Shown one piece after another: positions 39,283-54,214 of a stretch of DNA of 64,000 bases. The notes below the pieces were generated by a model, which saw only the letters and a program-made list of their open reading frames with translations, was not told where the DNA came from and made no database searches. The stretch is from positions 1 through 64,000 of the forward strand of contig NZ_AOPZ01000228.1 of NCBI RefSeq assembly GCF_000414115.1. Reading direction: 5' to 3'. This stretch comes from Streptomyces aurantiacus JA 4570. GTDB taxonomy: Bacteria; Actinomycetota; Actinomycetes; Streptomycetales; Streptomycetaceae. Both the position numbers and the translations under genes were made by a program. Within the stretch, counting starts at the first letter, position 1, and every line of letters starts with the position of its first letter.

Positions 39283-39431
39283 TGATCCCGCTCGGGGGTC
39301 TCGTAGTGCACGAGCGGCCGGTTCGGCTGGTCGGGCGTGGCGTTCAGGAGCGCGACGATGCCGAGCGCGGCGCCCACGGCAAGGGCCGCGGCGACCACGA
39401 CGGTCAGCGTGGCGGCGAACAATCGGTGCAT
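39279..39431 (-). CDS. small single-pass membrane protein (50 aa)
   Basis: The frame runs from ATG 39431 to TGA 39281-39279. Residues 4-28 form one hydrophobic helix (LFAATLTVVVAAALAVGAAL then GIVALL), followed by a short polar tail, HYETPERDQ. Almost all third codon positions are G or C, as in real Streptomyces genes. The stop overlaps the PucR start. A GAGAGG lies ten nt upstream of the ATG. It could be a membrane partner or a coupling leader for the regulator. Confidence 0.72.
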   Translation of the reverse strand: MHRLFAATLTVVVAAALAVGAALGIVALLNATPDQPNRPLVHYETPERDQ

Positions 39432-39484
39432 ACAGGGTCAGCCTCTCTGCATGGAGGTCGTCCCCACCCCGCTCCGCAGGTGCC

Positions 39485-39530
39485 CAGTGTCAACAACGCA
39501 TTGACACTGCGTCAAGGGTCCGCCTAGCGT
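39485..39530 (+). promoter_or_regulatory. DUF3068 promoter with TTGACA inside a 25-bp inverted repeat
   Basis: CAGTGTCAA-N7-TTGACACTG (39485-39509) is a perfect 9-bp inverted repeat. Its right arm supplies a consensus -35 TTGACA (39501-39506); TAGCGT (39525-39530) follows after 18 bp. The left arm supplies TTGACA for the minus strand, without a good -10. A regulator bound here would see the -35. Confidence 0.65.
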
Positions 39531-39696
39531 TCGCGACCCATACGGGTCAGTAACCCCGTGGAAACACTGCCGCAGCATTTCGGACATTCCGGCGGCAACA
39601 GCACCGCAGAAGACCCCCAACCCGTGGGTAATCCATCACAGTTGGCCGGTCCTCCCCTGTTCGTCCCCTGTTCGTTCTCATGGCAGGAGCGCCCGG

Positions 39697-40731
39697 ATGA
39701 CGCGCCGCACAGCCTCGCCCTTGTCCCTGGTCCTGCTCGGCCTGGGCGCCTTTCTGCTCGTCCTGGCGCCGATGCTGGCCTGGTACGTCGAACCGCGCGC
39801 CAAGCGCACGCCGACCGATATCGACCAGATCACCGTCTTCCGGGGCACAGGCAGCTATTTCGACACCAAGAAGATCAAGACCGTCCACGACCAGCGCCTG
39901 ACCATCACCCGGCAGGTGCGCGGCGACGTCGCCGACAGCGAGAAGTCGGGCCGGGCAGTCTGGGACGTATCGACCTCGATCGACCCCGACAGCTCGCTGC
40001 CCGCGGCCGATCCGCATGACTCTCTGCAGTGGACGCTCGAACGCTGGGTGACCGATCGTAAGACCAACAAGCCCGTGCACTGCTGCGACGAGAAGCCCTA
40101 TTTCGAGGGCGAGGCGTACCTGAAGTTCCCCTTCGACGTCGAGAAGCGCACCTACCTGTGGTGGGACCCCACCCTCGGCGACACCGTGCCGCTGACCTAC
40201 CGCGGCAAGAAGAAGATCCAGGGGTACGAGGGCCTCCGCTTCACCGGCACCGTGAAGGCCGCCAAGACCGGCACCCGGCAGGTGCCCGGGCGGATGGTCG
40301 GCCTGCCCAAGCGCAGCCAGGTCATGGCCGAGGAGTGGTACGCCAATCACGGCGTCGAGCTGGTCGCCGACCAGCGCACGGGCCGGATCATCTACGCCGC
40401 GCTCGGACCCCGCAAGACATTGCGGGCACCCGGGGGCAAGAAGGACGTCACGGTGCTGCTCGACAGTGAGCGCATCGCCTTCACCACGAAGACCCAGAAG
40501 GCGCAGGTGGAGCTGGCGGACGACGACAGCTCGCGCCTGAAGCTGGTGGGCGAGACGCTTCCGCTGCTGTCCGTGGTCCTGGGCGGCGCCCTGGCGCTGC
40601 TCGGCGGCGCCCTCGTCGTACGTGGCCGGGAATCGGGGTCGAACGGGACGCGAAGGGACGGTGAAGGACCGGATGCGAGCGGTCCACATTCCGAAACGTC
40701 CCCAAATTCCCTGCAACCCACCACGATGTGA
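39697..40731 (+). CDS. DUF3068 (PorA-like) membrane-anchored protein
   Basis: This 344-aa protein has an N-terminal signal anchor (about residues 8-29), a large extracytoplasmic beta-rich domain with DUF3068 features (YFEGEAYLKFPFDVEKRTY; WWDPTLGDTVPLTYRG) and a second helix near residue 290, followed by a hydrophilic tail. Databases group the family with PorA-like proteins, but pore function is not shown for Streptomyces. ATG 39697 follows AGGAG at seven nt. The 5' UTR would be about 160 nt. Confidence 0.85.
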   Translation: MTRRTASPLSLVLLGLGAFLLVLAPMLAWYVEPRAKRTPTDIDQITVFRGTGSYFDTKKIKTVHDQRLTITRQVRGDVADSEKSGRAVWDVSTSIDPDSSLPAADPHDSLQWTLERWVTDRKTNKPVHCCDEKPYFEGEAYLKFPFDVEKRTYLWWDPTLGDTVPLTYRGKKKIQGYEGLRFTGTVKAAKTGTRQVPGRMVGLPKRSQVMAEEWYANHGVELVADQRTGRIIYAALGPRKTLRAPGGKKDVTVLLDSERIAFTTKTQKAQVELADDDSSRLKLVGETLPLLSVVLGGALALLGGALVVRGRESGSNGTRRDGEGPDASGPHSETSPNSLQPTTM

Positions 40732-41030
40732 TGAGACGTCAGGTCTAAGAAGGGCCGAAATTGTCACCTCGGTGAGTAGCCCCGCCGTTCCTTGCGGCGA
40801 AAACTATCCACTCCACCCAGACACAGTCCCCGCACAGTCCCAGCACAACGGCCGCGCAGATCGATCATCCGCAGTCCCCGAGTCCCACCCCGCGCGCACC
40901 GCCCCAGGCCCCGCCCCGCAGCACACAGCACGTACCCCTCAGCACGGAACCACCAGCACCACCGGGCCCCACCCCGGGAGCCACCCGTAAGCCCCCACAG
41001 TTCCGCACCCCGAGACGAGTTGGAGCACCG
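40732..41030 (+). promoter_or_regulatory. C-rich, G-poor leader upstream of the glycan operon
   Basis: This 299-bp gap holds no gene. From about 40800 to 41020 the + strand is strongly C-rich and G-poor and appears unstructured, unlike other intergenic DNA here. Such sequence is what Rho loading (rut) sites look like. The first 70 bp are the AT-richest part and may hold the promoter. A GGAG lies six nt before the GT4 start. Confidence 0.4.
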
Positions 41031-42206
41031 ATGCCCCAGCACGTGCCGTCGTCGCTGCGCCCGGTCGCAACGCGGCCCGCGCGACGCCTTCCGGCGCTTC
41101 CCCCACAGCCCCGCCGGATCGCCTTTCTTGCCCGCCGCGACCTGGCCAACCCGGCCGCAGGCGGCTCCGAACTCCTCGTCGACCGCCTGGCCGACGGACT
41201 GACCGCCCACGGTCACCAGGTCACCCTGCTCTGCGGCGGCCCGGCCGCCTACCGCGACTACCGCGTGGTGTCGGCGGGCGGCGACCTCGGCCACTACCTG
41301 CGCGCCCGGTCTGCGTTCACCCGCCAGATCGGCGACTGCGACCTGCTGGTCGAGGTGTGCAACGGCATGCCCTACCTCGCCCCGCTCTGGCACCGCGGCC
41401 CCACCCTCTGCCTGGTCAACCACGTCCACACCGAGCTGTGGTCGATGCGCTTCCAGGGCCCCCTCGCCCCGGCCGCGCGCCTCGGGCGGCGCCTGGAGCA
41501 CTGGTCGCTCTCGGGCGCGCAGCGCGGCAACCTGCTGGTGGCGGTCTCGCCGTCGACGGCGACGGCCCTGGTGGACCTCGGTGTCGAGCGTGACCGCATC
41601 CGCGTCGTGCACAACGGCGTCGAGGAGCCGGGGCCGCTGCACGAGCGCTCCGACGAACCTCTCTTCCTGGCCATGGGCCGGCTCGTCGAGTACAAGCGCG
41701 TCGATCTGCTCCTTCGGCTGTGGGAGCGGGTCCGCCCGGTCACCGGCGGCCGCCTGGTGATCGTCGGCGAGGGGCCCGAGCGGGAGCGGCTCGAACGGCT
41801 CGCGGGCCCCGGCGTGCAGTTCACCGGCCATGTCTCGGAGGCCGAGAAGCACCGGCTGCTCTGCGAGGCGTGGATGCTCCTGCACCCGTCGGCCGTCGAG
41901 GGCTGGGGCCTGGTCGTCACCGAGGCCGCGGTGCGCGCGACGCCCGCGATCGGCTTCGACGTACCCGGCGTACGCGACTCCATAGAGGACGGTGTGACCG
42001 GGCTGCTCGCGCACGGCGAGAGCTCGTTCGCCGCCGCCTGGTGCACGCTCGCGCTCAGTGCGGAGCGGCGCCGGTCCTTCGGCAAGGCCGCCGCGGAACG
42101 CGCCGCGCGCTTCCGCTGGGCGAACACGGTGCGCCAGTTCCGCGCGGTGGCCGCGGAGGCCGTCGCCGCGCACGAGGCACCGCGGAAGGCCAAGGGATCT
42201 GTGTGA
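41031..42206 (+). CDS. GT4 family glycosyltransferase
   Basis: This 391-aa cytosolic GT-B enzyme is a retaining, nucleotide-sugar dependent glycosyltransferase. The N-terminal domain has AAGGSELLVDRLADGL. The C-terminal donor domain shows MGRLVEYKRVDLLLRL, VGEGPERERL and the GT4 EX7E-type motif in HPSAVEGWGLVVTEAAV (two Glu eight apart). ATG 41031 follows GGAG at six nt. The stop overlaps the next start (GTGA). It is the first gene of the nine-gene unit to 52457; the sugar is unknown. Confidence 0.92.
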   Translation: MPQHVPSSLRPVATRPARRLPALPPQPRRIAFLARRDLANPAAGGSELLVDRLADGLTAHGHQVTLLCGGPAAYRDYRVVSAGGDLGHYLRARSAFTRQIGDCDLLVEVCNGMPYLAPLWHRGPTLCLVNHVHTELWSMRFQGPLAPAARLGRRLEHWSLSGAQRGNLLVAVSPSTATALVDLGVERDRIRVVHNGVEEPGPLHERSDEPLFLAMGRLVEYKRVDLLLRLWERVRPVTGGRLVIVGEGPERERLERLAGPGVQFTGHVSEAEKHRLLCEAWMLLHPSAVEGWGLVVTEAAVRATPAIGFDVPGVRDSIEDGVTGLLAHGESSFAAAWCTLALSAERRRSFGKAAAERAARFRWANTVRQFRAVAAEAVAAHEAPRKAKGSV

Positions 42207-42922
42207 AGGACCCGTCGCTGCGCCGCTCCGTGACCCTGTTCCGGGCCTTCCTGCGGGAGCAGCAGGACCCCGAGCGGTGCTACGCGCTGCTCGCCCGGGA
42301 CGCCGCCGACCAGGTCGAACGGCATCTCCCTGTCAAGGACCGGGTGGTCGTCGACGTGGGCGGCGGAGGCGGTTACTTCACCGAGGAGTTCCGCAGGCGC
42401 GGCGCGCAGGCATACCTCTTCGAGCCGGACCTGACGGAGCTCGGGGCGAAGCCGCCCGAGGGCTCCGTCGTCGCCGACGGCTATCTGCTGCCGCTGGCCT
42501 CCGGCGTCGCCGACGTCACGTTCTCCTCGAACGTCCTGGAGCACGTCGACGACCCCCAGACCTTCCTCAGCGAGATGGTGCGCGTCACCCGCCCCGGCGG
42601 ACTGATCTATGTGGCGTTCACCAACTGGTACTCCCCCTGGGGCGGCCACGAGTGGGCGCCCTGGCACTACTTCGGCGCCGAGCGGGCCCGCGCCCGCTAC
42701 GAGCGCCGCACCGGCAGAACCGCCAAGCACAAGCTCGGCGAGAACCTCTTCGCGCACCACGTCGGACCCACGCTCAGACAGGTGCGGGCCCGCGACGATG
42801 TCACCGTCGTCTCGGCCCGCTCCCGGTACTGGCCGTTCTGGGCCGAAACGGTGGCGAAGGTACCGGGCGTGCGCGAAGTCGCCACCTGGAACCTCCTCCT
42901 CATCCTCAGGCGGTGTCCATGA
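42203..42922 (+). CDS. class I SAM-dependent methyltransferase (glycan unit, copy 1)
   Basis: The protein has 239 aa. The SAM motif I is VVVDVGGGGGYFTEEF; the acidic residue of motif II is in YLFEPDL. Motif LEHVDDPQTFLSEMVRVTRPGG is typical of Methyltransf_11 proteins on small molecules or sugars. GTG 42203 lies in the GTGA overlap with the GT4 gene, and the stop overlaps the next start (ATGA). The likely target is a glycan or lipid-linked sugar, inferred from context. Confidence 0.9.
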   Translation: MKDPSLRRSVTLFRAFLREQQDPERCYALLARDAADQVERHLPVKDRVVVDVGGGGGYFTEEFRRRGAQAYLFEPDLTELGAKPPEGSVVADGYLLPLASGVADVTFSSNVLEHVDDPQTFLSEMVRVTRPGGLIYVAFTNWYSPWGGHEWAPWHYFGAERARARYERRTGRTAKHKLGENLFAHHVGPTLRQVRARDDVTVVSARSRYWPFWAETVAKVPGVREVATWNLLLILRRCP

Positions 42923-45900
42923 CCACCACGGTCCAGTCCCCACCCCCGGCGGCCCTGAAGCCGACGGCGCCCGCGCCCGAACCCGGGCGCGGGCCGCGCT
43001 CACGGCGCTGGCTCGCCGGGTTCTGGGCCGTGGTGCTCGTGTGCTTCCTCGCCGTGCAACCGGGGCGGATGACGTTCGACACCAAGCTCGGTGTCGCCGT
43101 CGATCCCTGGCAGTTCCTGTCCGACCTCGGCCAGCTGTGGCACGACCGGGGCGGCTTCGGCGGCATCCAGGACCAGTACATCGGCTACGCCTTCCCGATG
43201 CTGCCGTTCTACGCCCTGGCCGACCTCGTGCAGCTCCCGGTGTGGCTGGCCGAGCGGCTGTGGCTCTCGCTGATCGTCGCCACCGCCTTCTGGGGCGCGC
43301 TGCGGCTCGCGGAGCGGCTGAACATCGGCAGCCACGGCTCGCGACTCCTCGGCGCGGTGGTGTACGCGCTGTGGCCGACGTTCACCGTCGTGGTCGGGTC
43401 GACGTCGGCGGCGGCGCTGCCCGGCGCGTTCCTGCCGTGGGTGCTCATCCCGCTCACCAACCACCGTGTCACCGCGCGGATCGCGGCGTTCCGCTCCGCC
43501 CTGTTCATCCCCTTCATGGGCGGCGTGAACGCGGCGTCGACGCTGGCGTCACTGCTGCCCGTGGGCCTGTATCTGCTGTCGCGGCCGAACGGCCCGCGCA
43601 AGCGCAAGCTGATCACCTGGTGGGTGCCGGGGGTCATCCTGGCCACCGCCTGGTGGGTGGTGCCCTTGCTGCTGCTCGGCATCTACGGCGAGAACTTCCT
43701 TCCGTACGTGGAGAACTCGGCGACCACGACCGGCACCATGTCGGCCACCGAGACGCTGCGCGGCGCCGGCAACTGGGTGGCGTATCTGCACTTCGGCGAC
43801 GCCTGGCTGCCCGCCGGGTGGACCGTCGCGACGGCCGTGGTCACCATCGTCGGCTCGGCGCTCGCCGCGGCCCTCGGCCTCGCCGGCCTGGCCCGGCGTG
43901 ATCTGCCGGAGCGGCGCTGGCTGGTGCTCACCGTCGCCTCCGTCGCCCTGGTCACCCTCGCCGGGTACGGCGGCGCGTTCGGCGCGCCCTTCCACGGCAC
44001 CGTGCAGGACTGGCTGAACGGCTGGCTGGTGCCGTTCCGCAACATCTACAAGTTCCAGACCGGGCTCGCCCTCGCCCTCGCCTTCGGCCTGGCGCATCTG
44101 GCGGGCGTGGCGGTGCGGGCGCGCGGGGCGCGGCCGGTGCGGGGGCGGCGGTACGCCCCGCTGGTGGCGGCCGTCCTGGTGCTTCCGGGGCTCGCCTGGC
44201 CGTACCTCAACGGCTCGATCCTGCAGCCCGGTTCGTTCCAGAAGCTGCCCAACTACTGGGACGCGACGGCGGACTGGCTGGACAAGTACTCCCCGGACTC
44301 GCGCGCCCTGGTCGTGCCAGCGACCGCGCACGGCATCTACACCTGGGGCTCGCCCATCGACCAGCCCCTCGACGTGCTCGCCGACTCCCGCTGGGCGCAG
44401 CGCGACTACGTGCCGTTCGGCACCAAGGGCAACCGGCGCGCCATGGACGCCGTCGAGCAGGCACTGATGACCGGCGGCCAAGTCCCGGGATTGCAGGACT
44501 ACTTGGGGCGCGCGGGCCTGCACTACGTGGTCGTACGCAACGACCTCGACCCCGACCAGATCGGCCAGGTGCCGACGGCGACCGTCAAGCGCACCCTGGA
44601 GGAGTCCGGGTTCTCGCGGGTCACCGGGTTCGGGCCGCAGGAGACCGGCGGGCGGATCGCCGACGACACACCGGTGCAGGTGGAGGGCCTCTACCCGCGC
44701 CAGCGTGCGGTGGAGATCTACGCGCCGGGCAAGGACGCCGCGCGTCCCGGCCAGGCGGGCCTGAAGCCGGTGTCCAACACGGCCGTCGTCAGCGGCGGCC
44801 CCGAGGCGCTCCTTCCGCTGTCCGCCGACCCGGAGATGAAGAACCGGCCGGTCGTCCTGACCGGCGACAACCACCCCGGACTCGGCTCACCGCCCGGCCT
44901 CCAGGCCGTCGGTGACGGGCTGCGGCGCGCGGACACCCGCTTCGGCCTGGTCAACACCAACACGTCGTACACGTACACCAAGGACGAGAAGAACGCGCCG
45001 GACGCGCTCCAGGACGGCGGCGAGAAGCCACGGCAGATCCTGCCGACCACGGGCGTCGAGCACCAGACGACGGCCGAGCTGCGCGGCGCCAAGTCCGTGA
45101 CGGCCTCCTCCTACGGCAACTGGCTGTTCCACCTGCCGCAGTACGACCCCGTGAACGCCTTCGACGGCAACCCGGACACCGCCTGGACCGAGGGCAACCC
45201 GGGCAACCCGGACGGCGAGTGGATCAAGGCGGAGTTCCGGAAGAAGACGGCCGTGCCGTCGTCGTTCAAGGTGACGCCGCTGCCGCAGCAGGGCGTGCGG
45301 TCCGCGCCGACGAAGGTGCGGGTGGAGACCGAACAGGGCAGCGCCACCACGTACTTGCAGGCCGACGGCTCGACGCAGCGCGTCAAGGCCAAGGCGGGCG
45401 ACACGAGTTGGGTGAAGCTGACCATCGAGGACGCGCAGGTCGCCCACAAGGGTCTGACCGGCGCCGGGTTCGCGGAGATCAGCATCCCGGGCGTGCAGGT
45501 CACCAAGCTCCTGAAGATGCCCGCCGACACCGTGGGCCGGGAGGGTGCCGACGCCGAGGCCGACGCCACGACGTACTCCATGCACCGCTCGGCCGACCCC
45601 AGCGGCCTGTCGCCGGTGACCGCCGAGGCCGGACTGCACCGCCGCTTCACCACCACGGGCGACGGTGACTACAAGGTGAAGGCGAGCGCGGTCTCCGTGC
45701 CGGGCTCCGCGTTCGACGAGCTCCTGTACAAGGTGGCGCCCGAGCAGCGCCGGAAGATCATCGCCAGCGCGGACTCGACGTCCGACCTGGGCACGCTCTC
45801 CCCCCGCAACCTCACCGACGGCGACCTGACGACGGCGTGGATCGCCGGTGACCGGCCGGTCATCCATCTGCGCTGGCCGGGCAAGGTGAGCGTCGGCGAG

Positions 45901-47646
45901 ATCGTGCTGCCGCCGGCGGGCGGCCTGTCCACCCGCGCGGAGAAGATCGAGATCAGCTCGCCCGACGGCGCGGCGACCGCCGGCGTCGACGAGAACGGCG
46001 TGGCCCGCTTCACGCCGATCAACACCGACCGCCTCGACATCACGATCACGAAGACGGCGCCGCTCACCCTGCACAACCCGGTGGCTGACGACAAGCTGCA
46101 ACTGCCCGTCGGCCTCACCGAGGCGTACATCCCGGCGCTGGACGAGTTCCGCGTCAAGCAGCCGTCCCCGAACCGCACGTTCAAGCTCTCCTGCGGCGAG
46201 GGCCCGGCGGTGAAGGTCGACGACAAGGTGTACGCGACGAGCGCCAAGGGCACCGTGCGGGACCTGATGGACCGGCGGCCCGTCGAGCTGACGCTGTGCG
46301 ACGACGGCGAGAAGCAGACCTCGGTGCCCCTCACCGCGGGCGAGCACCAGGTGGAGGCCGGTGACGGGGGCCCGCTCGCCGTCACCGACGTCACGCTGAC
46401 GCGCGGCACACCGGGCCGCGTCGACACCACGTCGCGCGAGCTGAAGATCAACGACTGGCTGGGCGACAAGCGCGAGGTGACCGTCGGCGACGGCGCCGCC
46501 TCGTACCTGACGACGTACGAGAACGCCAACGACGGCTGGAAGGCCACCCTGAACGGCAAGGAGCTGCGCTCGGTGCGGCTCGACGGCTGGCAGCAGGGCT
46601 GGCTGGTGCCGGCCGGCGAGGGCGGCAAGCTGAAGCTCGTCTACGAGCCGTCCACGGCGTACGAGGCCGGGCTCATCGGCGGCGGTGTGGGCGTCCTGGC
46701 CCTGGTGGCCCTGGTGTTCGTGCGGCGCCGCGAACCGAACCCGGACGGGCCCGACGTGGCGCCGCCCGCGCCCGGCCCGGTGCTCGGCACGGTGGTGCTC
46801 ACGCTGGTCGGCGTGGCCGTCGCGGGCTGGTTCGCGCTGCTCGTGCCCGCGCTCGCGCTGGTCGCCTGGCGCTGGCACCGGCTGCTCGTGCCGGTGGCGT
46901 TCCTGGCGATGGCCGGGGCCGGCATCGCGGCCGCGACCGGCGCGGGCGAGGCCGTCGCGGCGGACGAGGGCGCCTTCGGGCACGCGGCTCAGCTCCTGGC
47001 GTTCATCGCCCTGTTCGCGGCTCTGGTGAGTGTGCGGGAGCCGGTGCGGGGTGGGGCGGCTGTTCCTGTGGGGGCGGCTGGGCTTGGGTCCGGTGGGTCT
47101 GGTGGTCCGGGTGGGCCTGGTGGTCCGGCCGGTGCCGGTGGTCCTGGCGGACCGGCTGGTCCTGGCGGGTCCGGTGGCCCCGGCGGCCCTGGTGGTACCC
47201 CGCCCGTTCCGCCGCGGCCGGGCGCCTCCCCCGACGCGACCACGATGCCGCTCGGCCCCGACCGGGACCTGGGCGCGCCGACGGTCCCGCCGCCGCTGCC
47301 GCACCGCAAGCGCGGCGAGGACGAGTCGGGTGCCGACCACGCTTCGGGTGAAGCCCCCGCCTCCGGCCGGGACTTCGGCCGGGGCGGCGCGGACGGCACC
47401 GCGCAGCCCCCGTCCGGCGCCGCCGCACCCGGCACGTCCGGCACCGACCCGACACAGCCCCTGCCTCCGTACGCCGCCGGGCCGACCCTCTCGGCCCGCG
47501 GCCCCGACCCCCTGCGCAAGGACGACCCCGCCGCCGTGGAGGACTCCCGCCCGGGAGAGGACACCCCCACGGGTGAGGGCGACCACCCCGGAAGGGGCAC
47601 CCGCTCGGGCGAGGATCCCCGCCCGGGAGAGGACACCGCACCATGA
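42919..47646 (+). CDS. AftD-like (DUF3367) GT-C membrane glycosyltransferase
   Basis: At 1575 aa it is the largest product of the unit. It matches the alpha-(1->3)-arabinofuranosyltransferase/DUF3367 family: a membrane domain of about 10-12 helices (residues about 30-410), with acidic loop motif MTFDTKLGVAVDPWQFL after the first helix (GT-C catalytic Asp type) and GIQDQYIGYAFPM. A periplasmic part holds two discoidin/F5-8C-like carbohydrate-binding domains (about 720-850 and 945-1040). C-terminal helices lie from about 1250 to 1380. A 190-aa disordered tail follows, with a collagen-like GGPGGPGG stretch (about 1387-1434). Donors in the family are polyprenyl-phosphate sugars. ATGA overlaps occur at both ends. 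Substrate is unknown in Streptomyces, which lacks mycobacterial arabinogalactan. Confidence 0.88.
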   Translation: MTTTVQSPPPAALKPTAPAPEPGRGPRSRRWLAGFWAVVLVCFLAVQPGRMTFDTKLGVAVDPWQFLSDLGQLWHDRGGFGGIQDQYIGYAFPMLPFYALADLVQLPVWLAERLWLSLIVATAFWGALRLAERLNIGSHGSRLLGAVVYALWPTFTVVVGSTSAAALPGAFLPWVLIPLTNHRVTARIAAFRSALFIPFMGGVNAASTLASLLPVGLYLLSRPNGPRKRKLITWWVPGVILATAWWVVPLLLLGIYGENFLPYVENSATTTGTMSATETLRGAGNWVAYLHFGDAWLPAGWTVATAVVTIVGSALAAALGLAGLARRDLPERRWLVLTVASVALVTLAGYGGAFGAPFHGTVQDWLNGWLVPFRNIYKFQTGLALALAFGLAHLAGVAVRARGARPVRGRRYAPLVAAVLVLPGLAWPYLNGSILQPGSFQKLPNYWDATADWLDKYSPDSRALVVPATAHGIYTWGSPIDQPLDVLADSRWAQRDYVPFGTKGNRRAMDAVEQALMTGGQVPGLQDYLGRAGLHYVVVRNDLDPDQIGQVPTATVKRTLEESGFSRVTGFGPQETGGRIADDTPVQVEGLYPRQRAVEIYAPGKDAARPGQAGLKPVSNTAVVSGGPEALLPLSADPEMKNRPVVLTGDNHPGLGSPPGLQAVGDGLRRADTRFGLVNTNTSYTYTKDEKNAPDALQDGGEKPRQILPTTGVEHQTTAELRGAKSVTASSYGNWLFHLPQYDPVNAFDGNPDTAWTEGNPGNPDGEWIKAEFRKKTAVPSSFKVTPLPQQGVRSAPTKVRVETEQGSATTYLQADGSTQRVKAKAGDTSWVKLTIEDAQVAHKGLTGAGFAEISIPGVQVTKLLKMPADTVGREGADAEADATTYSMHRSADPSGLSPVTAEAGLHRRFTTTGDGDYKVKASAVSVPGSAFDELLYKVAPEQRRKIIASADSTSDLGTLSPRNLTDGDLTTAWIAGDRPVIHLRWPGKVSVGEIVLPPAGGLSTRAEKIEISSPDGAATAGVDENGVARFTPINTDRLDITITKTAPLTLHNPVADDKLQLPVGLTEAYIPALDEFRVKQPSPNRTFKLSCGEGPAVKVDDKVYATSAKGTVRDLMDRRPVELTLCDDGEKQTSVPLTAGEHQVEAGDGGPLAVTDVTLTRGTPGRVDTTSRELKINDWLGDKREVTVGDGAASYLTTYENANDGWKATLNGKELRSVRLDGWQQGWLVPAGEGGKLKLVYEPSTAYEAGLIGGGVGVLALVALVFVRRREPNPDGPDVAPPAPGPVLGTVVLTLVGVAVAGWFALLVPALALVAWRWHRLLVPVAFLAMAGAGIAAATGAGEAVAADEGAFGHAAQLLAFIALFAALVSVREPVRGGAAVPVGAAGLGSGGSGGPGGPGGPAGAGGPGGPAGPGGSGGPGGPGGTPPVPPRPGASPDATTMPLGPDRDLGAPTVPPPLPHRKRGEDESGADHASGEAPASGRDFGRGGADGTAQPPSGAAAPGTSGTDPTQPLPPYAAGPTLSARGPDPLRKDDPAAVEDSRPGEDTPTGEGDHPGRGTRSGEDPRPGEDTAP

Positions 47647-49040
47647 CCGCCCTGGAACACCCGGCCCGGCGTGCGGACGGCTCCGGCCGGCCGCCGCGCC
47701 GGGTGCCGTTCCCCGTCGTCGACGAGGTCGCCCGGCACTGCCTGCAGGAGCAGGAGCCGGAGACCGTGCACATCGAGGTGCACCTGCCGGGCACGCCCGA
47801 TCCGGCGCGGCTGAGGACGGCGTTCGGCGAGGCCCTGCGGCGCCACCCGCGCATCCTCATGCGGGAGGCGCGCGGGCCCTGGTACCGGCGCCGCTACGAG
47901 TGGGAGCTCACCGAGGCGCCGGACGTGGAGGTGGTGACGTTCCCGGCGGCCGAGCGGGACGCCCTGAAGCGGGCCCGCGAGCGCGCCCTGTGCGACGCGC
48001 CGCCGCTCACCGCCTCGCCGCCGATCCGCCTCGAGGTCGTCGCCGACCCGGAGGCGGGCGGCGACTCCAGCGTCCTGTTCCTGACCATCAACCACACCGC
48101 CCTGGACGGCCCCGCCTGCCTGCGCGTCCTCGCCACCGCGGCCGAGCTGTACGGCGGCCGGGACAACGCGCCCGCGGCGCCGCCGACGCGTACTCCCGTG
48201 TCCGCCGACGCGTCCGCCGCCGACACCGAGGCCCCGGCCGGGCTGCCCTCCCCCTGGGCCGCCCCCGCGCGCGTCGCCCACGGCGCCCCCGAACCCTCCC
48301 CGGGCAACGGCATGCTCGTCGCCGACCTGCCGGTGCCGCGCCGCCCCAAGGGCGCGCCGTACACCGTCAACGACCAGCTGATGGTCGCGACGGCGCTGAT
48401 GATCGCGCACTGGAACCGTGAACACGGCTCCAGGCCACGCCCGTTGCGCATCACCATGCCCGTCGACGACCGGCCGCGCGACATGACGATGCCCATCGGC
48501 AACGGCACCCGGCTCGTGGAAGTGCCGTTCGGCGCGGGCGAGTTGGTGCCGGGGGGCGACACCGGCCGGCCGGGGCCCGGCGACCTGGGCCCGGAGGACA
48601 TCCATGCCCTGCTGCGCCGCACCTCCGACCGCACCCGCGCCCTCAAGGCCCTGTCGCGCCCGCAGCTCGGCCACGGTGCCGCGCTGCTCACCGCGCCCGT
48701 CCTTCCGGTGACGATGCGCGCCGCCCTCACCCGCGGGCTGCGCCGGGCCGCCGCGCCGTGGACCTCGACGACGCTGCTCAGCAACATCGGCCGGGTGCCG
48801 TACGCCCTGGACTTCGGGGACGCCGGGGCCGCGTACGCCGTGTGGTTCTCCGCGCCCGCCCGGATGCCGCGCGGCCTGACCGTGACCACCGCGTCCACCG
48901 CGGGCCGCCTGCACCTGGCCCTGCGCTGGTCCCGGACGCTGCTCGGCCACGGCGACGGCGCCCACCTGCGCGACCTCTTCGAGCACTATCTGCACGCCAC
49001 GCAGAACCTCCACCCGACCCCGGAGGACAGCGGCTCATGA
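47643..49040 (+). CDS. condensation-fold / PapA-like acyltransferase
   Basis: This 465-aa protein is of the CAT/condensation superfamily. The catalytic HxxxDG motif is His151-TAL-Asp155-Gly156 (NHTALDG). The structural DFG motif is present as YALDFGDAG. It lacks carrier-protein domains and stands alone, like mycobacterial PapA acyltransferases that acylate sugars and lipids. Here it probably O-acylates the glycan or its precursor. It has ATGA overlaps with both neighbours. Confidence 0.82.
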   Translation: MTALEHPARRADGSGRPPRRVPFPVVDEVARHCLQEQEPETVHIEVHLPGTPDPARLRTAFGEALRRHPRILMREARGPWYRRRYEWELTEAPDVEVVTFPAAERDALKRARERALCDAPPLTASPPIRLEVVADPEAGGDSSVLFLTINHTALDGPACLRVLATAAELYGGRDNAPAAPPTRTPVSADASAADTEAPAGLPSPWAAPARVAHGAPEPSPGNGMLVADLPVPRRPKGAPYTVNDQLMVATALMIAHWNREHGSRPRPLRITMPVDDRPRDMTMPIGNGTRLVEVPFGAGELVPGGDTGRPGPGDLGPEDIHALLRRTSDRTRALKALSRPQLGHGAALLTAPVLPVTMRAALTRGLRRAAAPWTSTTLLSNIGRVPYALDFGDAGAAYAVWFSAPARMPRGLTVTTASTAGRLHLALRWSRTLLGHGDGAHLRDLFEHYLHATQNLHPTPEDSGS

Positions 49041-49795
49041 CGACGACCAGCGCCACACCACGTACAAAAGAGTCCCAACGCCCGCGCGAGCTGCGGGACT
49101 TCTACGAGAACCCGGACGTGCCCGTCGCGTCCGGCGACGCCCGCAGCCTGCGCCAGGCCCGGATGCTCGCCGCCGCGCTCGGCCCGGCGACCTCCGGCCA
49201 GGGTGTCGTCCTCGACATCGGCTGCGGCGACGGCAGCGCGGCCCGGGTCGCCGCGCCGCTGCTCGCCGGGCACCGCGTCATCGGCGTCGACTGGTCCCAG
49301 GACGCGCTGCGCCGCGCCAGCGGCCACCTGCCGCACGTCGTACGCGGCGAACTCACCGACGGCGGACTGCCGTTCGCGGACGGCTCCGCGGACGCCGTGC
49401 TGTTCAGCGAGGTCATCGAGCACCTCGTCGACCCCGACAGCGCGCTCGACGAGCTGCGCCGGGTGCTGCGGCCCGGCGGCCACCTGATGCTGTCCACGCC
49501 CAATCTCGCCGCCTGGTACAACCGCGGGCTGCTGCTCGCGGGCGTGCAGCCGGTGTTCTCCGAGGTGAGCCTGCGCGGCATCCACGGCCGCCCGGGCCGC
49601 GAGGTCGTCGGTCATCTGCGGCTCTACACCGCCCGCGCGCTGCGGGAGTTCGTGGCCGCGTCGGGCTTCGACGTCGTACGGCTCGCGGGCGCGCCCTTCC
49701 ACGGCGTGCCACGGCCGCTGCGTGCCCTGGACAGACTGGCCTGCGCCGTGCCGGGCGCCGCCTCGATCCTGCTGCTGCACGCCCGAAGGGCATAG
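49037..49795 (+). CDS. class I SAM-dependent methyltransferase (glycan unit, copy 2)
   Basis: The protein has 252 aa. Motif I is VVLDIGCGDGSAA; motif II is VIGVDWSQ; motif III is EVIEHLVDPDSALDELRRVLRPGG. The C-terminal part resembles O-methyltransferases of cell-envelope clusters. The start overlaps the acyltransferase stop by four bases; the next gene begins two nt after its TAG. The target is inferred to be a sugar hydroxyl. Confidence 0.9.
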   Translation: MTTTSATPRTKESQRPRELRDFYENPDVPVASGDARSLRQARMLAAALGPATSGQGVVLDIGCGDGSAARVAAPLLAGHRVIGVDWSQDALRRASGHLPHVVRGELTDGGLPFADGSADAVLFSEVIEHLVDPDSALDELRRVLRPGGHLMLSTPNLAAWYNRGLLLAGVQPVFSEVSLRGIHGRPGREVVGHLRLYTARALREFVAASGFDVVRLAGAPFHGVPRPLRALDRLACAVPGAASILLLHARRA

Positions 49796-49797
49796 CC

Positions 49798-50727
49798 ATG
49801 TGGTGGGGTGTGGCCGCGGCGCTCCTCGCGAACCTGCTCTACAGCACCGGTTTCGTCCTGGAGAAGCGGGCCCTGACCGCGATGCCGTCGGTCAGCGTCC
49901 GCAAACCGGCCCGGCTGCTGCGCCAGGTGGTCTCCAGCCCGCTGTGGATCGGCGGTTCGCTCGCGCTCGCGGCGGGCTTCGGCGCGCAGCTCATCGTCTA
50001 CCGGACGCTGCCGATCGCGGCGGCGCAGGGCATCTTCGTCTCCGGCCTGGTGCTGCTCCTGCTCCTGTCGGCGGCGCTGCTCGGCGAGCGCACGTCCGGC
50101 CGCGAGCGGTACGCGGTCGGCGCGATCCTCGTGGCGCTCCTGATGGTCGTGCTGTCCCTGAAGGAAGGCACGGACACGGTGGGCCGCGACGCGCCCGCGC
50201 CGCTCGTCCTCACCGTCTGCCTGCCCTCGCTCGCGCTCGGCCTGTGGCTGTACGGATCGGCCGAGCGCCGCACGCGCAGCAAGCACCGGCAGCCGACGAC
50301 GGGCGTGGAGTACGGCGTCGCCGTGGGCCTGCTGTACGGCGTGAGCTCGCTCGCCATCAAGGGCGTGTCCAGCCATCTGACCTCGGACGGGCTCGGCGGC
50401 GCCCTGGTCGACCTGCTGCGCTCCCCGTACCCCTATCTCCTGCTCTTCACCGGCGCGTTCGGCCTGATCATGTCGCAGGCGGCGCTCCAGAAGTGCCGCG
50501 CCTCGCTGATCGTCCCGGTGTGTACGACGGTGACGTCACTGTTCACCGCGGTGCTCGGGACGCTCGCGTTCGGCGAGGCGCTGCCCGACGACCCGGTGCG
50601 GCTCGCGCTGCGGGTCACGGGGACGGTGCTGGCGGTGGCGGTGCTCCTGATGATGCCCAAGCACGACCCGCCGCCACCGGCCCCCGACACCGAACCGACC
50701 TTGCCTCCCAAGGAGTTGATGCCCTGA
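49798..50727 (+). CDS. EamA/DMT superfamily transporter
   Basis: This 309-aa protein has ten hydrophobic segments in two EamA repeats (WWGVAAALLANLLYSTGFV near the start; YGVAVGLLYGVSSLAIKG in the middle). Family members move metabolites; the SMR/EamA relatives ArnE/F flip lipid-linked aminoarabinose. In this unit a role in flipping a polyprenyl-phosphate sugar for the AftD-like enzyme is a reasonable inference, not proven. It has a TGATG overlap with the next gene. Confidence 0.88.
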   Translation: MWWGVAAALLANLLYSTGFVLEKRALTAMPSVSVRKPARLLRQVVSSPLWIGGSLALAAGFGAQLIVYRTLPIAAAQGIFVSGLVLLLLLSAALLGERTSGRERYAVGAILVALLMVVLSLKEGTDTVGRDAPAPLVLTVCLPSLALGLWLYGSAERRTRSKHRQPTTGVEYGVAVGLLYGVSSLAIKGVSSHLTSDGLGGALVDLLRSPYPYLLLFTGAFGLIMSQAALQKCRASLIVPVCTTVTSLFTAVLGTLAFGEALPDDPVRLALRVTGTVLAVAVLLMMPKHDPPPPAPDTEPTLPPKELMP

Positions 50728-51011
50728 TGAACCCCGACGACCCGCTGCTGAAGATCCTCGCCTGCCCCCTGGACAAGGGTCCGCTGGTCCTCCTGGAACC
50801 CGAGGAACCCCCACTCGGCGAAGCCCCCGACGCGGGCGGCGCGGCCGAGGTGTCCGGGGACCCGATACCCGTGCCCGAGCAGGCCCTCTACAACCCGCGC
50901 CTGCACCGCCGTTACCCCATCGTCGACGGCATCCCCCAGCTCCTTCCGTCCTCCGGTGAGCAGGTCGCGGAGGACGAGCACGAGCGCCTGCTGAAGCGGA
51001 TCTCGCCGTGA
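50727..51011 (+). CDS. Trm112-like (YcaR family) small protein
   Basis: This 94-aa protein has the Trm112/YcaR pattern LLKILACPLDKGPLVLL and RRYPIVDGIPQLLP. The zinc knuckle is incomplete (ACPLD instead of CPxC), which I recall as common in actinobacterial members. In other systems Trm112 binds and stabilises methyltransferases. Three methyltransferases lie in this unit, so it may be their activator. ATG 50727 overlaps the previous stop; its own stop overlaps the next start (GTGA). Confidence 0.85.
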   Translation: MNPDDPLLKILACPLDKGPLVLLEPEEPPLGEAPDAGGAAEVSGDPIPVPEQALYNPRLHRRYPIVDGIPQLLPSSGEQVAEDEHERLLKRISP

Positions 51012-51832
51012 CGGCAGCCGCCAAGAAGACCCTCGCCGCCCGGATCGCGCCCCGGCTGCCCACCCGGGCCGTGGCCGCCCTGGCCCGCCTCGTCTATCCC
51101 CGCTTCGAGCCCGAGCTGGCCCGCCTCGGCGATCTCTGCCCGCGCGACTGCGGCACCGCCGTGGACGTCGGCGGCTGGTACGGGCCCTGGTCGCGCCGCC
51201 TCGCCGGGCGCGCGCGGCGCGTGGTCACCGTCGAGCCGGTGCCGCACCTGGCGCGGCTGCTCGCGACCGCCACGCCCGGCAACGTCCGGGTGATCCAGGC
51301 CGCGGCCGGCGACCGCGAAGGCACCGCGCGGCTGTGGCTGCCGCGGGACGACCGGGGTGACCGGGGCGTGTCCTCCCTCGTACGCAGGGACGGCGTGCAC
51401 GCCACCGCCCTGGACGTGCCGTGCGTCACGCTCGACGGGCTCGGCCTGCGCGACGTGCACTTCATCAAGATCGACGTGGACGGCAACGAACTGCCCGTCC
51501 TGCGCGGCGCCCACGAGCTCCTCGACCGGGACCGGCCCGCGCTCTTCGTCGAGCTGGAGTCCCGCATCCAGCCCATCACGCCGGTCGTCGACCACCTCGC
51601 CCACGCGCACGGCTACCGCGGCTGGGTGCTGCCGGGACACACCTGGGTGCCCCTCGACTCCTTCGACCTGGAGGCGCACCAGCGCGCCACCTCGTACGTC
51701 GTGACGCAGGGCCTGCTGCGACGGGTGCTGACACCCCGGCGGCCGCGGTATGTGAACTCGGTCCTCTTCCTGCCCGAAGGGCGGAGTCCGGGCGGGCACG
51801 CCGTGCGGGACCATGGGGCGTATGTCCGCTAG
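51008..51832 (+). CDS. FkbM family methyltransferase
   Basis: The protein has 274 aa. Motif I is AVDVGGWYGPWSRRL; FkbM signature IKIDVDGNELPVLRGA near residues 155-170. FkbM enzymes O-methylate sugars and polyketides. GTG 51008 sits in a GTGA overlap with the Trm112-like gene. It is the third methyltransferase in the unit. Confidence 0.9.
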   Translation: MTAAAKKTLAARIAPRLPTRAVAALARLVYPRFEPELARLGDLCPRDCGTAVDVGGWYGPWSRRLAGRARRVVTVEPVPHLARLLATATPGNVRVIQAAAGDREGTARLWLPRDDRGDRGVSSLVRRDGVHATALDVPCVTLDGLGLRDVHFIKIDVDGNELPVLRGAHELLDRDRPALFVELESRIQPITPVVDHLAHAHGYRGWVLPGHTWVPLDSFDLEAHQRATSYVVTQGLLRRVLTPRRPRYVNSVLFLPEGRSPGGHAVRDHGAYVR

Positions 51833-52457
51833 CTCCGCCGCCGGGCCCGGCTCCGGCTCGTCCCGTCCGCCAGGGCCGCCGTCGCGGCCGTTCACACCGC
51901 TCGACTTCCAGCTGGTCCTGCTGCGCCGCATGGCCGACCACAATCCGGACCTCGTCGAGGACGCCCGGCGCGAACTCGGCGTCTCCATCGCCGACATGCG
52001 CGAGGCCAACCGCCGCTGGCAGGCGATGCTGCACGCGCGCAAGGGGCGCGCTGCGGTCTCCCGCTACCGCTCGGTGCTCGGAAAGCCCGAGGCGACGGCC
52101 CCCCGGAAGATCGGCGACCTGGAGTGCGAGGCGCTGCTCTGGCCGGTGCCGCTCTGGCCCGGCCTGCGCTTCGAGGTGCTGCTGGGGCCGAACGCCGCGG
52201 TGTGGAACGAGTGGCTGATCCGCGCTCCCGGCGCCCCGGGCCCCGCCCTGCGCACCCTCGCGGACCTCACCCCCTGGTCCTGCACGGTCGACGAGGCCGC
52301 CCGCGCCTTCGCGCCCGCACGCCCGATGGAGGGCACGGCGCCGACCCGCTGGCGGCTGGCCTTCTCCGCGCCGGACGGGGAGACGGGGGAACGGCGGCGG
52401 TGCGTGGCGGAGTTCACGTGGGGGCTGCTGCAGCGGGTGTCGTTCCCTGAGGGGTGA
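51822..52457 (+). CDS. protein of unknown function at the end of the glycan unit
   Basis: The protein has 211 aa. The N-terminus is Ser/Pro/Gly-rich (about 30 residues), followed by a helical region (LVEDARRELGVSIADMREANRRWQAM) and a beta-rich C-terminal half. I do not recognise a family. It overlaps the FkbM gene by 11 bases; ATG 51813 is an alternative. No signal or membrane segment. The overlap suggests it belongs to the unit. Confidence 0.65.
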   Translation: MSASSAAGPGSGSSRPPGPPSRPFTPLDFQLVLLRRMADHNPDLVEDARRELGVSIADMREANRRWQAMLHARKGRAAVSRYRSVLGKPEATAPRKIGDLECEALLWPVPLWPGLRFEVLLGPNAAVWNEWLIRAPGAPGPALRTLADLTPWSCTVDEAARAFAPARPMEGTAPTRWRLAFSAPDGETGERRRCVAEFTWGLLQRVSFPEG

Positions 52458-52520
52458 CGTACGCGGTGCGGGTGGAAGCCCAAGGCCCGGGTGGCTCACG
52501 GGAGTTCGTATGATGCGCCC

Positions 52521-54214
52521 ATGGCAAGCACGGGGGAACTGGTCGCCGGACGCTACCGCATCGAGACGCGGCTCGGCCGGGGCGGCATGGGCACGGTGTG
52601 GCGGGCGCGGGACGAGCTGCTCGGGCGGGCCGTCGCGGTCAAGGAGCTGCATGTCGACGCCGCGCTGACGGCGGACGACGCGGAGCGGCAGCAGGAGCGG
52701 ACGCTGCGCGAGGCGCGGTCGGTGGCGCAGCTGAAGCATCCGGGCATCCTCGTGCTGCACGACGTGGTGCAGCACCCCGAAGCGTCCGCGCGGCCCTGGC
52801 TGGTGATGGAGCTGGTCGAGGGCTGGTCGCTGGCCGACCGGATGGCGGCCGAGGGTCCGCTGCCGCCCGCCGAGGCGGGCCGGGTGGGCCTGGCGCTGCT
52901 CGCCGCGCTGCGGGCCGCGCATACGGCCGGGGTGCTGCACCGCGACCTGAAGCCCGCGAACGTGCTCCTGGAGGCGGAGACGGGCCGCGTCGTCCTGTCC
53001 GACTTCGGCATCGCGCAGGTCGCGGGGCAGACGACGCTGACGCAGACCGGGGCGTTCGTGGGTTCGCCCGAGTACACCGCGCCGGAGCGGATGTCGGGGC
53101 GGCGGTCGGGCCCGGAGTCCGACCTGTGGTCGCTCGGGGTGCTGCTGTGCGCGGCGGTGGCGGGCACGTCGCCGTTCCACCGGGACTCGGTGGCCGGGGT
53201 GCTGCACGCGGTGGTCCTGGACGAGATCCGGCTCCCCGACGAGCTGGGCCCGCTGCTGCCCGTGGCCCGGGGCCTGCTGGAACGCGATCCGGAGCACCGC
53301 CTCACCACGTCCGGCGCGGAACAGGCCCTCCGTACCGCGCTGAACGAGCCCGCGCCACCCGCGCCCCACGCCCCGGCCACGACCGCGACCCCGGGCGCCC
53401 CGGCCACCACCCCCGCCCACGCGCACCCCGACCCCACCCCGGCCCGCACCGTCCCCGAGCCCCTGCCGCCCGCCCGGCGCGGTGCGCGCTCCCGCCCCCG
53501 TTCGCGCACCGCGGTCCTGGCCGGCGCCCTGGTCGCGGTCCTGGCCGCGGGAGGTATATCCGCGGGGATATGGCTGGCGGGGACGAGGCGGGCGCGGGCG
53601 GCGGCGGGAGGACGACGGAGGCCGCGGACAAGAAGGACCTGGAGCCCACCGCGAAGAAGTCCCCGAAAGGCCCGGCCGAGCCGCGCGAGACCCCTCGGCC
53701 CGGCACATCGGCCGACGGCTCCCAGCGCACCGGCAAGCCCGCGAAGACGCCCCCGCCGAAGGGCGCCGAGCCCCCCGCCGGCTACCGCGCGGTCACCGAC
53801 CCGGCCGGTTTCGCCCTCACCGTCCCCGAGGGCTTCACCCGCTCCCCCGAGCCGCCCCGCGTCTACTACTACTCGCCGGGCAAGAGGTTCCGCATCGGCG
53901 TCCACCCCCAGCCCAAGAGCCCGGCGGGCCCCCTGTCGACGATGCGGAAGGCCCACGCGGACGGCCCCTCGGACTACCCCGGCTACCGCGCCGGTTCGGT
54001 CACCCGCACCACCCACAACGGCCACGCCGCCGCCCTGTGGACGTTCACCTGGAACGGCACCGCCAAGGACGGCGGCCCTCGGGTCACCTACGACCTGAGC
54101 TGGAACGAGAACGGCAAGATGTACGACCTGTGGGTCTCGGCCCCGGCGGCCAGCGGGCCCGAGGGCAAGCGGTACTTCGACCGCGCCCTGCGGTCCTTCA
54201 GGCGGACCTCCTGA
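52521..54214 (+). CDS. Ser/Thr protein kinase with extracytoplasmic domain, frame broken at 53579-53582
   Basis: The kinase domain is intact: glycine loop LGRGGMGTVW (18-27), Lys41 (AVAVKEL), HRDLKPAN (140-147), DFG 161-163, APE (YTAPER). A Pro/Thr-rich linker and one transmembrane helix follow (about 333-351). At the G-run 53579-53582 the coding phase shifts by -1: the frame reading the helix continues as Arg/Pro-rich shadow sequence to 54098, while the -1 frame encodes a sensible extracytoplasmic domain (RTTEAADKKDLEPT...FDRALRSFRRTS) ending at 54214. One missing G explains it. The start is ATG 52521; TATGAT (52509-52514) ends six nt upstream, so the mRNA is probably leaderless. Confidence 0.8.

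Follow-up and report, generated by a model that had tools for sequence, protein, structure and literature searches.

A probable Streptomyces form of the actinobacterial AftD-LmcA locus, likely to act on an envelope glycoconjugate

The closest described relatives of the gene cluster reported here lie in the Corynebacterineae, in the aftD-tmaT-lmcA-mmpA-mtrP locus (Corynebacterium glutamicum NCgl2757-2764; Mycobacterium tuberculosis Rv0224c-Rv0236c; NCgl numbers from PMC8698533 and PMC6034362). In C. glutamicum, lmcA shares its locus with tmaT, mmpA and mtrP (PMC8698533), AftD (NCgl2757) has been assayed as an alpha(1-5) arabinosyltransferase, and the surrounding region is described as syntenic throughout the Corynebacteriales (PMC6034362). 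LmcA, or PgfA (Rv0227c, MSMEG_0317, NCgl2760), is required for maturation of lipomannan (LM) and lipoarabinomannan (LAM) in C. glutamicum (PMC8972800), has been tied in M. smegmatis to polar growth and the trafficking of lipids (PMC9678360), and mycobacterial Rv0227c contacted AftD in a two-hybrid test (PMC6656915). MtrP of C. glutamicum is reported to be needed for the synthesis and transport of acetylated trehalose-corynomycolate, and MmpA is an AftD-like membrane protein with no recognised catalytic domain, homology to which was reported absent outside corynebacteria and mycobacteria (PMC8698533). Here we describe a ten-gene cluster built around aftD and lmcA homologues in Streptomyces aurantiacus JA 4570, within a 64,000-nucleotide window (the whole stretch analysed, positions 1 to 64,000 of contig NZ_AOPZ01000228.1). 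From gene content and order, we consider it highly probable that this cluster represents, in Streptomyces, the AftD-LmcA locus of actinobacteria and that it works on an envelope glycoconjugate.

At the centre of the cluster is g3 (42919..47646, + strand), a 1575-residue AftD homologue with a GT-C domain (GT-C_AftD, PF11847, 751.8 bits against a cut-off of 26), carbohydrate-binding modules (CBM_AftD, PF24607, 44.9 bits) and F5/8 type C domains. It resembles PDB entry 6w98, which we take to be M. abscessus AftD, along its full length (E 3.1e-142 over residues 27-1377); this match to an AftD-type structure with binding modules led us to reject an identity as MmpA. Across 22 aligned AftD rows E265 is invariant, and the first conserved stretch has Asp at position 54 or, in L036, L038, L039 and L049, Glu; these acidic residues are candidates for a catalytic role. 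The aftD of S. rimosus is mentioned in a published list of recombining genes (PMC6437091), and one genome of family f26 (our label) has three successive AftD-model matches (L057 1224-15245; 543, 130 and 629 bits, with the second match weak).

Upstream on the same strand lies a gene absent from the list of an earlier sequence-only reading of this DNA, 299 nt before the GT4 glycosyltransferase gene that opens the nine genes listed there. This gene, lmcA (39697..40731, + strand), encodes an LmcA/PgfA homologue (DUF3068, PF11271, 255.8 bits, cut-off 29.5) that matches the solved LmcA structure 7n3v over a short stretch (residues 136-187, 52 residues, E 2.2e-4).

The association of AftD with LmcA extends across the class. 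In 197 class genomes, with only some first-look candidates scored per genome, we found AftD in 89 and DUF3068 in 87. Taking the best AftD match per genome and leaving out G127, where DUF3068 was under its cut-off, we found an LmcA gene no more than 20 kb from AftD in 67 of the 89 AftD-bearing genomes, and on the same strand in 66; linkage in family f14 was 0/3. C. glutamicum was the sole match for AftD and DUF3068 among 14 control genomes. Twenty class loci, hand-chosen from the 89 genomes and mostly positioned to include LmcA so that their LmcA count proves nothing, held relatives of the GT4 enzyme beside AftD in 17 cases and relatives of the g2-type methyltransferase above 100 bits in 13; AftD, LmcA, GT4 and this methyltransferase were all present in 12. 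The relatives of g1 and g2 are adjacent in L043, a locus whose gene content suggests Mycobacteriales. In a quick tree of 40 AftD rows, every family with at least two rows fell on one side of a branch, and on that basis recent transfer of AftD between families was rejected. Its 20 Streptomyces rows share one long stem branch, with family f18 nearest.

A membrane protein in the position of MmpA was compared across four class loci and is 31-43% identical in most pairs; a model built from the four proteins matches 16 of the 20 chosen loci, the four source loci included. MmpA-like proteins occur in AftD loci of several families (L043 14878-16623, L049 1659-3194, L054 3226-5037 and L056 18140-19816), and their position and likeness to the L043 protein suggest that they may be MmpA.

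Within Streptomyces, AftD is patchy (23 of 61 genomes, our own included) and DUF3068 occurs in 47 of the 61. A DUF3068 gene nevertheless lies about 3 kb upstream of AftD on the same strand for 23 of 25 AftD matches; the remaining two are a match at a contig end (G032) and one in a genome of 1,770 contigs with DUF3068 on another contig (G050). DUF3068 genes are also present in 24 of the 38 AftD-negative Streptomyces, and a second DUF3068/LmcA gene (L069 754-1749, G000:C64) lies away from any AftD. Twenty genus loci found through AftD contain the first eight genes in 16 cases, with three cut by a contig end and one lacking a match for the drug/metabolite transporter (DMT)-like gene (L037); FkbM is present in 13 and g9 in 11. 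L031 gave no AftD match by tblastn, yet has a 1,496-residue AftD frame at its contig end.

A scan with g4 returned 328 relatives, and the best 80, all Streptomyces, were kept, a set that favours near relatives (the closest being S. aureoverticillatus, 96%). Non-pathogenic strains that carry the locus include S. coeruleorubidus ATCC 13740 (L147) and S. lincolnensis L4 (L136). All ten genes stand in one order and on one strand in 66 of these 80 loci; four of the other 14 lack only FkbM, contig ends truncate seven, and three (L103, L140 and L158) have the cluster with no lmcA found upstream of GT4. With start codons picked by script, exact 4-nt overlaps recur between AftD and condensation genes (66/78), condensation and methyltransferase genes (73/80), DMT and Trm112 genes (57/78), Trm112 and FkbM genes (64/74) and GT4 and methyltransferase genes (40/76). 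The methyltransferase/AftD distance was mostly -13, a value that depends on the script-chosen start; in our window this junction is ATGA. Between lmcA and GT4 the gap always exceeded 10 nt across 72 loci (median 225); a separate promoter for lmcA is thus possible. In one locus (L022 12112-13498) methyltransferase and AftD are set apart by an additional 1.4 kb or so, without a long frame on the cluster strand. Our comparison A2 drew on 10 of the 20 AftD-found loci, and A3 and A4 on 33 and 31 of the best 80. This conservation of order and of 4-nt overlaps supports the earlier proposal of a tightly coupled unit around a true AftD homologue, likely working on an extracytoplasmic glycan.

The nine genes of that proposal are indeed open reading frames on the + strand within 41031-52457, and all eight of its junctions match the sequence. 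The GT4 glycosyltransferase g1 (41031..42206; PF00534, 94.5 bits) overlaps g2, a S-adenosylmethionine (SAM)-dependent methyltransferase in the MtrP position (42203..42922; PF08241, 60.9 bits), through GTGA at 42203-42206. ATGA joins g2 to g3 (42919-42922), g3 to the putative condensation/BAHD-fold protein g4 (47643..49040; junction 47643-47646), and g4 to g5, a second SAM methyltransferase (49037..49795; PF08241, 80.7 bits; junction 49037-49040). A 2-nt gap (TAG-CC-ATG, 49793-49800) precedes g6, a DMT-like multi-pass membrane protein (49798..50727). TGATG (50725-50729) leads into g7, a 94-residue Trm112-like protein (50727..51011; PF03966, 42.6 bits, cut-off 22), and GTGA (51008-51011) into the FkbM-type methyltransferase g8 (51008..51832; PF05050, 63.9 bits, cut-off 22.7), which is absent from some relatives. 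The last gene, g9 (51813..52457, or from ATG 51822), overlaps g8 by 20 nt from start 51813 or by 11 nt from ATG 51822. A promoter and terminator scan of 39400-53000, which covers Streptomyces promoters poorly, gave no promoter-like and two terminator-like sites, not above shuffles.

Pfam cut-offs were exceeded for GT4, both Methyltransf_11 proteins, GT-C_AftD, Trm112p and FkbM, so these names stand as first given, and g9, initially called unknown, has no Pfam or NCBIfam match and, from a model of pLDDT 83.8, no convincing PDB fold match (best 3d4e, TM 0.26). Two other names are weaker. For g4, "PapA/condensation" is at most a tentative fold-level name: a low-confidence model (pLDDT 63) matched nonribosomal peptide synthetase (NRPS) condensation and BAHD folds (Foldseek 7c1k, E 1.7e-13, TM about 0.5), and g4 keeps the His and Asp-Gly of HxxxDG in common with PapA, BAHD and NRPS condensation acyltransferases. 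However, no Pfam or NCBIfam family exceeded its cut-off, and in place of the HHxxxDG of PapA-type acyltransferases g4 has NHxxxDG, invariant in 34 rows (NHTALDG in the window), with Asn replacing a first His that is found in L038 and L034; a profile search against PDB sequences gave a best E of 0.31. We regard g4 as a probable acyltransferase. A weak g4 relative (96 bits; L051 14097-15689) directly follows AftD in a genome of f18, the family nearest Streptomyces in the AftD tree. Similarly, g6 is a DMT-like membrane protein with a conserved place in Streptomyces loci, but the name "EamA transporter" is a weak one, since EamA (PF00892, 16.6 against 28.2), NIPA (18.3 against 26.2) and NCBIfam DMT_1 (40.4 against 50) all scored below cut-off.

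The sequence-only reading had also held that the sugar donor must come from elsewhere, which fits our data. In the mycobacterial pathway to polyprenyl-phosphoryl-arabinofuranose (the DPA pathway), the enzymes are the UbiA-type DPPR synthase, DprE1 and DprE2, and all three exceed NCBIfam equivalog cut-offs in the S. aurantiacus genome (567 contigs, 96.26% complete): DPPR synthase at 416.8 bits (cut-off 207) close to where contig C65 ends, and DprE1 (683.6, cut-off 500) and DprE2 (386.5, cut-off 250) as neighbours near the start of contig C331, off the contig of the cluster. Five further stretches from Streptomyces (L071, L072 and L075-L077) have DPPR synthase and DprE1 genes as divergent neighbours, and PAP2 and GtrA genes at such stretches were Pfam-checked in one locus each. 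L073, L078 and L079 have DprE1-DprE2 without the DPPR synthase that usually comes before them, their genomes (G007, G057 and G021) having none over cut-off, and L074 and L080 show no DprE1 in the neighbourhood listing. Seven GT87 matches in the S. aurantiacus genome are unspecific and were not used. Unlike mycobacterial DprE1, the S. aurantiacus enzyme (L065 331-1689, P0011) has Ala at the ICVD cysteine of the solved protein, presumably Cys387 and benzothiazinone-reactive; benzothiazinones that act covalently would thus be predicted not to affect this enzyme. DprE1 exceeds its cut-off in 34 of the 61 Streptomyces (G005 marginally, at 500.9 against 500). The study that discusses the role of the reactive cysteine, which examined S. 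somaliensis, stated that Streptomyces lack DprE1 (PMC4608729). In the genus, DprE1 tends to accompany AftD (20/23 AftD-bearing against 14/38 AftD-negative genomes, p 1.6e-4), as does DPPR synthase (14/23 against 10/38, p 0.014), both uncorrected for phylogeny. Of the three Streptomyces AftD rows with Glu at position 54, two (G030 and G047) come from genomes without DprE1 over cut-off and the third (G057) from one that has it. EmbABC (PF04602), part of the mycobacterial arabinogalactan and LAM system, was found in none of the 23 AftD-bearing Streptomyces, whereas the positive control G187 gave three copies.

On these grounds we propose a route to an acylated, O-methylated, arabinose-bearing envelope glycolipid or lipoglycan, independent of EmbABC. 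The GT4 enzyme and SAM methyltransferases, judged by family, would build and O-methylate a lipid-linked glycan at the cytosolic face, and the condensation-fold protein would acylate it. The DMT-like protein might help the intermediate move outward. Outside the membrane, AftD, whose family and domains fit the task, would glycosylate this acceptor with polyprenyl-phosphoryl-arabinofuranose supplied by DPPR synthase, DprE1 and DprE2 from the other loci. LmcA would hold or present the lipid acceptor to AftD, as their linkage and the mycobacterial two-hybrid contact suggest. Phosphatidylinositol mannosides (PIMs) are reported from Streptomyces, and LM or LAM are not known there (PMC5882110); a PIM-type acceptor is therefore possible. 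Lipoteichoic acid is reported in S. hygroscopicus and S. coelicolor (PMC3196553). The product was first left open; its class is no longer wholly so if this cluster corresponds, in Streptomyces, to the AftD/LmcA/GT4/MtrP locus. The "heavily decorated polymer" first suggested stays conjectural, the C. glutamicum role of MtrP appearing not to be polymer-related.

Several observations weigh against this proposal, and its weakest step is the donor. DPPR synthase exceeds its cut-off in just those 14 of the 23 AftD-bearing Streptomyces, and G030 and G047 (near complete), G240 (100% complete) and G050 (82% complete) carry AftD without DprE1 over cut-off. Class-wide, DprE1 exceeds its cut-off in only 38 of 89 AftD genomes, 31 of them in families f1, f4 and f17; 48 of the 55 AftD-bearing genomes outside these families have none over cut-off, including f18 (0/14) and f19 (0/12), and the f18 AftD also has no linked LmcA (0/14). 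DprE1 is found in 21 of 108 class genomes without AftD. We therefore reject the rule that AftD always implies DPA. Given these gaps, in the genus and in the class, AftD is tightly partnered with LmcA and, on less full sampling, with GT4 and the methyltransferase, but not with the DPA pathway. Additionally, AftD from Streptomyces shares only about 30% identity with AftD of other families, and this divergence together with the long stem branch means that its specificity may differ. What we suggest for acyl transfer, for the targets of methylation and for flipping is likewise no more than a proposal.

We had judged arabinofuranose transfer by this AftD to be evenly balanced, and now put it slightly short of that, since with G240 the near-complete Streptomyces that carry AftD but no DprE1 over cut-off number three. 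Our preferred reading as a whole is equally tentative, at a little less than even odds. A bolder and somewhat unlikely extension of it is that an Emb-independent, arabinofuranose-bearing, acylated and O-methylated envelope glycolipid would occur in a good share of Streptomyces, and that AftD-LmcA-GT4-MtrP would be an old class-wide envelope machine tied only later to mycolates and arabinogalactan in Corynebacterineae. Also somewhat unlikely, but the strongest rival, is an account with the same locus and envelope role in which the sugar that AftD transfers from polyprenyl phosphate is a different one, such as mannose from Ppm1, and the DPA genes serve another pathway, shared ancestry explaining their association with AftD. 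The DprE1 gaps in G030, G047, G240 and the 48 class genomes fit this account, as do the strong divergence of Streptomyces AftD, the DprE1 genes of 14 AftD-negative Streptomyces and the polyprenol-phosphate mannose made by S. coelicolor Ppm1 (PMC5882110); yet DprE1 is commoner alongside AftD in the genus, and the S. aurantiacus genome holds all three DPA genes. We regard it as improbable that AftD serves with LmcA chiefly as a scaffold or a complex for lipid transport, with transferase activity secondary or lost and the remaining genes modifying a transported glycolipid. The trafficking and polar growth phenotypes of M. smegmatis LmcA/PgfA (PMC9678360) and the lack of a recognised catalytic domain in MmpA of the same locus (PMC8698533) point that way, but AftD retains its carbohydrate-binding modules and the candidate acidic residues at position 54 and E265. 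That the product of the cluster is a specialised metabolite or glycolipid for secretion rather than a structural envelope component is very improbable, for although AftD is patchy in the genus and methyltransferases, FkbM and condensation-fold enzymes are common in clusters of that kind, AftD-LmcA linkage is class-wide, the AftD tree follows families, and family scans (Pfam and NCBIfam) of the ten genes found no polyketide synthase or NRPS module.

S. aurantiacus may thus make an arabinose-bearing surface glycolipid. To our knowledge, Streptomyces have no mycolates. The roles of LmcA/PgfA, AftD and MtrP have been debated in mycolate and LAM terms (PMC8972800, PMC9678360, PMC8698533), and the Streptomyces homologues would allow their basic function to be separated from mycolate effects, and to be studied in strains that are harmless. 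Our preferred reading would also give a possible purpose to DprE1 in a genus stated to lack it (PMC4608729). Additionally, it predicts a surface component not described in the literature searched; among the matches listed from openly licensed PMC papers, none described this cluster in Streptomyces.

Set beside the Corynebacterineae locus, the Streptomyces cluster shares the togetherness of AftD, LmcA, a GT4 enzyme and an MtrP-like methyltransferase. We take the GT4 enzyme to correspond to Rv0225 and MtrP to Rv0224c in M. tuberculosis. The Corynebacterineae locus has mmpA, whereas the MmpA-like model matched none of 100 Streptomyces loci, some of them cut short. It also has the acyltransferase TmaT, which is not among the ten genes of the window (other loci and the rest of the genome were not searched for it). 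What the Streptomyces form has beyond the shared core is a putative condensation-fold protein, another methyltransferase, the DMT-like protein and Trm112, often joined by FkbM and g9.

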